Shown here one piece after another: positions 11,002-11,732 of a stretch of 64,000 bases of DNA. Numbering within the stretch: the stretch's first letter is position 1; each line of letters opens with the position of its first letter. The translations under genes and the position numbers were made by a program. A model generated the notes under the pieces. That model saw only the letters and a program-made list of their open reading frames with translations, searched no databases and was not told the origin of the DNA. The DNA comes from Gottschalkia acidurici 9a (GTDB taxonomy: Bacteria; Bacillota; Clostridia; Tissierellales; Gottschalkiaceae), in the NCBI RefSeq assembly GCF_000299355.1, contig NC_018664.1:679115-743114 (forward strand), in the 5' to 3' direction.

Positions 11002-11031
11002 ATTCAGGAGAGTATTTCTACTCTCCTGAAT
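11002..11031. terminator. Bidirectional terminator (TetR gene / tiny-peptide array)
   Basis: 13-bp perfect stem ATTCAGGAGAGTA / TACTCTCCTGAAT with a TTTC loop. The better T-run lies on the minus-strand exit, so it mainly ends the peptide-array transcript. Confidence 0.75.
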
Positions 11032-11056: not shown

Positions 11057-11179
11057 CTACCACTTACCAAATCCACCATCACAGATGCAGAATATTATTA
11101 CTAATAATAGGAAGAAGAATAAAAGTTCACTTCCTACTCCTACACCACCACCGCAATTATTCGCTCTAACTTCAGACAT
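11057..11179 (-). CDS. Tiny Cys/Gly/Phe-rich membrane peptide, copy A (40 aa)
   Basis: ATG at 11179 follows a ribosome site AAAGGGGG. The peptide starts MSEVRANNCGGG, has a hydrophobic core SELLFFFLLLVIIF, and ends CICDGGFGKW. The layout (short polar head, Gly run, Phe/Leu helix, Cys-x-Cys and GGFGKW tail) is shared with two neighbouring copies. It recalls the YjcZ-like tiny sporulation proteins of Firmicutes, which are similarly Gly-rich with one hydrophobic stretch, but I cannot prove homology. The Cys pair could support cross-linking or metal binding. Last gene of the three-gene array. Confidence 0.75.
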   Translation of the reverse strand: MSEVRANNCGGGVGVGSELLFFFLLLVIIFCICDGGFGKW

Positions 11180-11256
11180 TCTAAAAACCCCCTTTAATTT
11201 GCATTCAATATATTATTTAAATAAAGAGGATAAAAGTCCTCAATATTTAAAAGTAA

Positions 11257-11376
11257 TTACCACTTACCAAAGCCTCCACCACAGCAGCAGAATAATATTA
11301 CTAACAGTAGGAAGAAGAATAGTAGTTCTCCACCACCACAACCTCCACCAAACCATGATGCTCTAGTTTCACTCAT
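11257..11376 (-). CDS. Tiny Cys/Gly/Phe-rich membrane peptide, copy B (39 aa)
   Basis: ATG at 11376 follows AAAGGAGG. The sequence starts MSETRASWFGGGCGGG, continues ELLFFFLLLVILF and ends CCCGGGFGKW. It is the most Cys-dense copy, with three consecutive Cys after the helix. The coding similarity to copies A and C is high in the helix and tail and low in the head, which argues that all three are translated and under selection rather than random ORFs. It is separated from copies A and C by about 80 and 55 bases with no internal terminator. Confidence 0.75.
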   Translation of the reverse strand: MSETRASWFGGGCGGGELLFFFLLLVILFCCCGGGFGKW

Positions 11377-11430
11377 TCTAAAAACCTCCTTTAAATTTTA
11401 AAAATTAAATGTTGAATATTCCAAAATGTA

Positions 11431-11556
11431 CTAGAATTTACCAAAGCCACCATCACAGATGCAAAATAGTACTACTAATAATAGGAAGAAGAATAGTAAT
11501 TCACTACCAATACCTCTACCTCCACCACCACACCATAGTCCTTTAGTTTCACTCAT
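11431..11556 (-). CDS. Tiny Cys/Gly/Phe-rich membrane peptide, copy C (41 aa)
   Basis: First gene of the minus-strand array. ATG at 11556 follows AAAAGGAGG. It starts MSETKGLWCGGGGRGIG, has the core SELLFFFLLLVVLF and ends CICDGGFGKF. It shares the MSET start with copy B and the CICDGGFGK tail with copy A. Two promoter-like elements lie upstream (11592-11620 and 11703-11732), both shaped like mother-cell sigma-K sites. A role in the spore envelope is therefore a reasonable guess, not a demonstrated one. Confidence 0.75.
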   Translation of the reverse strand: MSETKGLWCGGGGRGIGSELLFFFLLLVVLFCICDGGFGKF

Positions 11557-11591
11557 TATAAAAACCTCCTTTTAATTTGTTAACTCCATAT

Positions 11592-11620
11592 CAATATATG
11601 ACGGAGTTTTAAATTGGTGC
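11592..11620 (-). promoter_or_regulatory. Sigma-K-like promoter, proximal
   Basis: On the minus strand: GCAC, 16 bases, CATATATTG. This resembles the Bacillus sigma-K pattern (AC, 16-17 bases, CATAnnnTA), about 35 bp upstream of peptide copy C. Shares the string GCACCAATTTAAAAC with the distal copy except one base. Confidence 0.4.
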
Positions 11621-11702
11621 ATAATTTTTTGAAAAATATTTATTATAATTTTTAGTGCGTATTAAGATTAAGTTTTTAGGTACAATAAGTTCAGCGTTAA
11701 TA

Positions 11703-11732
11703 CATACTATGAAGTACGTTTTGAATTGGTGC
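11703..11732 (-). promoter_or_regulatory. Sigma-K-like promoter, distal
   Basis: On the minus strand: GCAC, 17 bases, CATAGTATG. It is a second copy of the proximal element and overlaps the plus-strand ileS promoter, so the two directions may interfere. Confidence 0.35.

Follow-up and report, generated by a model that had tools for sequence, protein, structure and literature searches.

Unnamed micro-proteins with a near-invariant phenylalanine/leucine core and sigma-K-type promoters in the spore-formers of the Tissierellales

The window, by which we mean the whole 64,000-nucleotide stretch of Gottschalkia acidurici DNA analysed here, contains an array of three micro-protein genes, all on the minus strand and encoding, in order from their promoters, peptides of 41, 39 and 40 codons. 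Three adjacent paralogues of 39-41 residues had been predicted at this place, and the minus-strand open reading frames lie exactly there (11057-11179, 11257-11376 and 11431-11556); the predicted span of 11057-11732 proved too wide for the array proper, which stops at 11556, position 11732 being the end of the distal promoter. The locus reads as follows:

11002..11031, no strand assigned (listed on the plus strand; the minus-strand T run was read directly): 13-bp hairpin closing the array (AGGAGAGTAGAAATACTCTCCT then GAATTTTTT)
11057..11179, minus strand: micro-protein 3 gene (40 aa, MSEVRANNCGGGVGVGSELLFFFLLLVIIFCICDGGFGKW); open reading frame, ribosome site, selection
11226..11241, minus strand: weak hairpin of 5 pairs, small and terminator-like, separating micro-proteins 2 and 3; of uncertain use
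11257..11376, minus strand: micro-protein 2 gene (39 aa, MSETRASWFGGGCGGGELLFFFLLLVILFCCCGGGFGKW); open reading frame, ribosome site, selection, AlphaFold2 helix at residues 16-32
11431..11556, minus strand: micro-protein 1 gene (41 aa, MSETKGLWCGGGGRGIGSELLFFFLLLVVLFCICDGGFGKF), nearest the promoters; open reading frame, AGGAGG 8 nt upstream, purifying selection, HMM match to relatives
11593..11620, minus strand: proximal promoter of the sigma-K type, GCAC-N16-CATATATT, lying 37-64 nt upstream of the first start codon; most relatives have the motif at a similar distance
11704..11732, minus strand: distal promoter of the sigma-K type, GCAC-N17-CATAGTAT, lying about 150-175 nt upstream of the first start codon
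11796..12017, plus strand: T-box leader of the divergent ileS, a neighbour outside the array (Rfam RF00230, 130.5 bits)

The strong ribosome sites foreseen for all three genes are present, AAGG(A/G)GG lying 8 nt before each ATG. The paralogues are 74-77% identical in pairs, and among them synonymous change exceeds nonsynonymous change (pS 0.38-0.51, pN 0.17-0.21); between the window array and that of the closest relative, pS reaches up to 0.62 with a pN of 0.08. Within the core, which spans 13 codons, changes affect 3-8 of about 9-10 synonymous sites, versus 0-3 of about 30 nonsynonymous ones. The three array genes are real coding genes, under purifying selection. The helix and the tail are shared by the three peptides, as had been predicted, but their heads are not simply different: all of them have Met-Ser-Glu and a Gly-rich linker in common. 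Phenylalanine is written TTC in 12 of the 17 array codons, versus 136 of 668 in the long open reading frames of the window, and the same preference extends to the relatives (734/1207 family codons, 259/1222 in neighbour genes), as expected for highly expressed genes.

The array genes belong to a family whose proteins, 26-90 residues long, are organised around a near-invariant hydrophobic core, LLFFFLLLV-hh-F. Across 138 cores from 99 distinct proteins, the consensus is L-L-F-F-F-L-(L/I)-L-V-h-h-F, in which positions 1-4 and 8 never vary. The collection was gathered by profile and by pattern, which favours the core, the pattern permitting other hydrophobic residues at positions 2-12. The 111 LLFFFLLLV cores are spelled in 102 different ways in the DNA, and hence conservation is at the protein level. 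Ser, Glu and Asp precede the core, and Gly and Cys-x-Cys follow it; the Cys-x-Cys pair is found in 75 of the 99 proteins, mostly directly after the helix, while 24 lack it and 9 have no cysteine at all. In single-core members, the heads average a net charge of -1.6 and the tails one of +0.2.

Beside the single-core peptides, there are two-core members of about 50-90 residues, one of them in Tissierella praeacuta. The source genome itself possesses two further members outside the window, i.e., an 87-residue two-core gene at 774.1 kb of contig C2 (774115-774249) and a 28-residue single-core gene at 2352.4 kb of the same contig (2352355-2352450). The former has a long acidic, Cys-containing head and stands on the downstream side of a gene that by eye is TldD/PmbA-like, and long-headed members of this kind occur at five loci in several relatives. 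The latter, perhaps truncated or a pseudogene, has a TAG directly after its core, a sigma-K-type site about 90-100 nt upstream and a ferritin-like gene (by eye) nearby. We also observed, at five loci in or near the same arrays, small proteins of the same layout with Ile/Leu/Trp cores (e.g., GEFIWIIIIIIIFCCFC; positions 2680-2871 of locus L042 and 134-328 of locus L062), likely a sister family; those scanned gave no Pfam match.

For each core, a single short helix about 17 residues long is predicted, and for the two-core version a helix-turn-helix. AlphaFold2 models, which cannot place a helix in a membrane, give with modest confidence (mean pLDDT 67) a single helix at residues 16-32 of window micro-protein 2 and helices at residues 18-34 and 40-60 of a two-core member. 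Scans of the window, single-core and two-core proteins against Pfam, NCBIfam and PHROGs returned no credible match, the source genome's own two-core protein matching PHROG 11913 weakly (E 0.007), and a PDB sequence search found nothing. The family is so far unnamed and absent from Pfam, NCBIfam and PHROGs. As regards family libraries, the suggestion that such genes are missed by length cut-offs is likely correct. The literature, with most subscription journals outside reach, contained neither the core peptide LLFFFLLL nor a description of such a family for the Tissierellales.

The surroundings of the array are not those of a sporulation locus, its window neighbours being ileS and a gene for a TetR-type regulator. 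The 13-bp hairpin that closes the array is common to it and to the convergent TetR-type gene. On the other side, the ileS T-box leader points away from the array, and the sigma-K-type promoters lie about 65-200 bp from the start of the leader; apart from this T-box, the Rfam scan near the array gave no match. The closest relative carries an array of 8 copies, again near ileS, with one gene between.

Two copies of GCAC-N16/17-CATAnnnT had been described upstream of the array, and both are present on the minus strand, at 11593-11620 and 11704-11732; in the whole window, this motif occurs three times, versus 0.59 expected by chance. A second site is not general in relatives, so the use of the distal promoter is less certain and it may be secondary. 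A sigma-70-like match at 11583-11555 (11/12) was rejected as a promoter because the start codon and its -10 box overlap. The sigma-K reading holds in a comparison of 68 distinct upstream regions of first-in-array family genes, each spanning positions -260 to -12 relative to the start codon. AC-N15-17-CATAnnnT is found in 49 of them, versus 4.8 expected (at most 11 in 100 dinucleotide shuffles), and in 44 of the 60 clusters of unlike upstream sequence, most sites starting 56-98 nt before the start codon, while the regions upstream of long open reading frames in the same loci, used as controls, contain it in 17 of 210 cases. None of the other sigma motifs is enriched in the same 68 regions (SigE 2 versus 1.8 expected, SigG 0 versus 0.4, SigA 1 versus 0.6). 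A hold-out of 41 regions fetched later gave 29 with the motif, versus 2.3 expected (at most 6 in 200 shuffles). About 30% of the family upstream regions have no exact match.

The position just before AC, which the search left free, holds A or C at 43 of 44 sites, and at 23 of 23 in the hold-out, as in the mAC -35 element of the Bacillus subtilis sigma-K consensus. Most of the family upstream regions present mAC and CATAnnnT, separated by 16 or 17 nt and suitably placed ahead of the gene. In Clostridium difficile, sigma-E and sigma-K promoters have a common -10 element and differ by ATA (sigma-E) or AC (sigma-K) at -35 (PMC3789822); the family regions are likewise marked by the AC type and not by ATA. 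By its promoter motif, membership of the family in the sigma-K regulon is supported.

In the source genome, sigK itself is split. Its 5' part stops, its 3' part starts at about model position 115, and the 11.5 kb that separate them encode a large serine recombinase (Resolvase/Recombinase/Zn-ribbon; C2:1449000-1462500). A split sigK with a site-specific recombinase inside is the arrangement of a skin element, such elements interrupting sigK in B. subtilis and C. difficile, where they are excised in the mother cell (PMC5025042). The recombinase has the domain set of the C. difficile CD1231 (Resolvase/Recombinase/Zn-ribbon, PMC5025042), but its gene adjoins the 5' half of sigK here and the 3' half in C. 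difficile. This skin-like element, of about 11.5 kb, also carries genes for a Coat_F-domain, a YmaF-family and a DUF1259-type protein, and the 5' half of sigK seems, by eye, to encode a pro-sequence-like N-terminal extension, unlike that of C. difficile. Since sigK is interrupted in this way, expression of the array would need excision of the element in the mother cell.

Within the order, the distribution of the family follows that of a sporulation gene. We used 80 related genomes, 52 of which possess the sporulation marker spoIVA (TIGR02836). The profile built from the three window proteins matches in 51 of the 80, and the two-core model in 53, i.e., in all 52 genomes with spoIVA and in one of the 28 without it (Fisher p 1.8e-20, uncorrected for shared ancestry). 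This lone exception is 88% complete, and the other sampled members of its genus carry spoIVA. Within the order as sampled, the family is restricted to spore-formers, as would be expected of a spore envelope protein, and the coding conserved in relatives that the original prediction depended on is found in every sampled spore-former of the order. Family and spoIVA are jointly absent from one genus in each of two families and from four whole families; this scatter does not correspond to one clade and implies several separate losses. In a class-wide sample, spoIVA is present in 42 of the 44 genomes positive for the family versus 281 of 391 overall (p 4e-5), the two exceptions being 78% and 92% complete with spoIVA-positive family-mates. 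Outside the order, the occurrence of the family is patchy, and thus it cannot be counted among the universal sporulation genes. A phylum-wide sample, poor in genomes of this order, gave the source genome as sole positive at E<=1e-4. In a scan of genome contigs with a tblastn filter, two named relatives alone were retained, the core being probably too short for that filter. Plasmids and phages contained no relative of the family, and none was confirmed in viral contigs.

We consider it likely that these are late-sporulation micro-proteins of the mother cell, transcribed from sigma-K promoters, and that they would contribute to the spore envelope as small units of structure or anchorage. The order-wide restriction to spore-formers, together with the sigma-K-type promoter, makes the family probably a set of overlooked building blocks of the outer layers of the spore, and the coat or cortex-membrane identity initially proposed is plausible. 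The micro-proteins would be made in the mother cell after engulfment, and we infer from the favoured Phe codons, the strong ribosome sites and the multiple copies that they would be produced in large amounts. The short Phe/Leu helix would then insert into the outer forespore membrane, or else the peptide would pack into the coat. Under the positive-inside rule, the head and tail charges suggest that the Cys/Gly tails would face the mother cell, where the Cys-x-Cys pairs could cross-link the peptides to one another or to coat proteins; such cross-linking cannot be essential in all members, since some lack the pair or any cysteine. The peptides would in this way act as structural or anchoring units, and the codon usage, typical of high expression, favours abundant late units of this sort. 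The neighbours of the array in the window, which are not spore genes, count against this explanation. A more specific proposal, which is possible but which we hold to be rather doubtful, is that the near-invariant LLFFFLLLV helix self-assembles, by way of a specific interface between Phe and Leu residues, to form a hydrophobic layer at the outer forespore membrane or coat, with tails cross-linked by Cys-x-Cys, and that the family would be an undescribed structural family of clostridial spores, universal in the spore-formers of the order and among the most abundant late proteins.

Peptides that are small, very hydrophobic, arranged in arrays and apparently late and abundant could also be membrane-active agents which, timed by sigma-K, would help to break open the mother cell and set the spore free in a holin-like way together with sigma-K autolysins, without being spore components. 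We find this unlikely, as the core residues hardly vary and the Cys/Gly tails are conserved, which suggests a specific partner and not a general disruption of membranes, and no known lysis family was matched in Pfam or PHROGs. The frequency of Cys-x-Cys and its position, mostly right behind the helix, would suit membrane peptides that handle metal or redox late in sporulation, for example in metal loading or as a disulphide relay for the coat, and not as structural units. This reading seems to us improbable: some members keep the core without any cysteine, and the expansion in copy number, up to the 8 copies of the closest relative, suits structural use better.

Type I toxins of the Ldr/Ibs or TxpA type are similar in size to these tandem single-helix peptides of 30-40 residues, and a toxin or bacteriocin-like array could be imagined on this ground. 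It is very improbable, however, for a family that is stable in all spore-formers of the order, missing from close non-spore-formers, preceded by sigma-K promoters, and without plasmid or phage match or confirmed viral relative. Finally, false matches arise easily with short open reading frames and with hydrophobic HMM cores, which raises the question of chance frames or low-complexity sequence. This explanation is refuted by the selection pattern, by the ribosome sites kept in relatives, by the promoter enrichment, and by the same models giving no match in 27 of the 28 related genomes without spoIVA.

The composition of the clostridial spore coat and outer membrane is poorly known, and annotation overlooks micro-proteins. 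A family that is lost together with sporulation and has a readable sigma-K promoter is a sequence marker for spore formation, and its upstream regions also supply training examples of clostridial sigma-K promoters. It also poses the question of the exact LLFFFLLLV identity kept in a transmembrane-like helix across many families while the flanks drift.

Several known spore proteins invite comparison with the envelope units that we favour. SpoVM is a very small mother-cell peptide at the forespore surface, sigma-E-timed, amphipathic and single-copy; the present micro-proteins may resemble it in size and mother-cell origin, as they may other micro-proteins of the outer forespore membrane, and are set apart from it, by description, by their sigma-K-type promoters, fully hydrophobic core and multiple copies. 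The C. difficile exosporium proteins CdeC and CdeM are late mother-cell, Cys-containing proteins of the spore surface, distinguished, again by description, by being much larger and by having no LLFFFLLLV helix. The YjcZ/SscA-type proteins of Bacillus have about 25-50 residues, a Gly-rich head and one short hydrophobic helix. None of the 3 window, 36 family and 10 two-core or related proteins reaches the curated cut-off of 21.35 bits of their model TIGR01732 (tiny_TM_bacill), which also has no match in the whole source genome and was positive in the B. subtilis control; the family described here differs from them by its LLFFFLLLV core, the flanking Ser/Asp/Glu and Cys-x-Cys, and its two-core versions. 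Several "YjcZ family sporulation proteins" are listed in B. cereus (PMC8313275). The likeness between the two families is one of analogy only, and consists in the tiny size, the Gly-rich head, the short helix, the several paralogues per genome and the link to sporulation.
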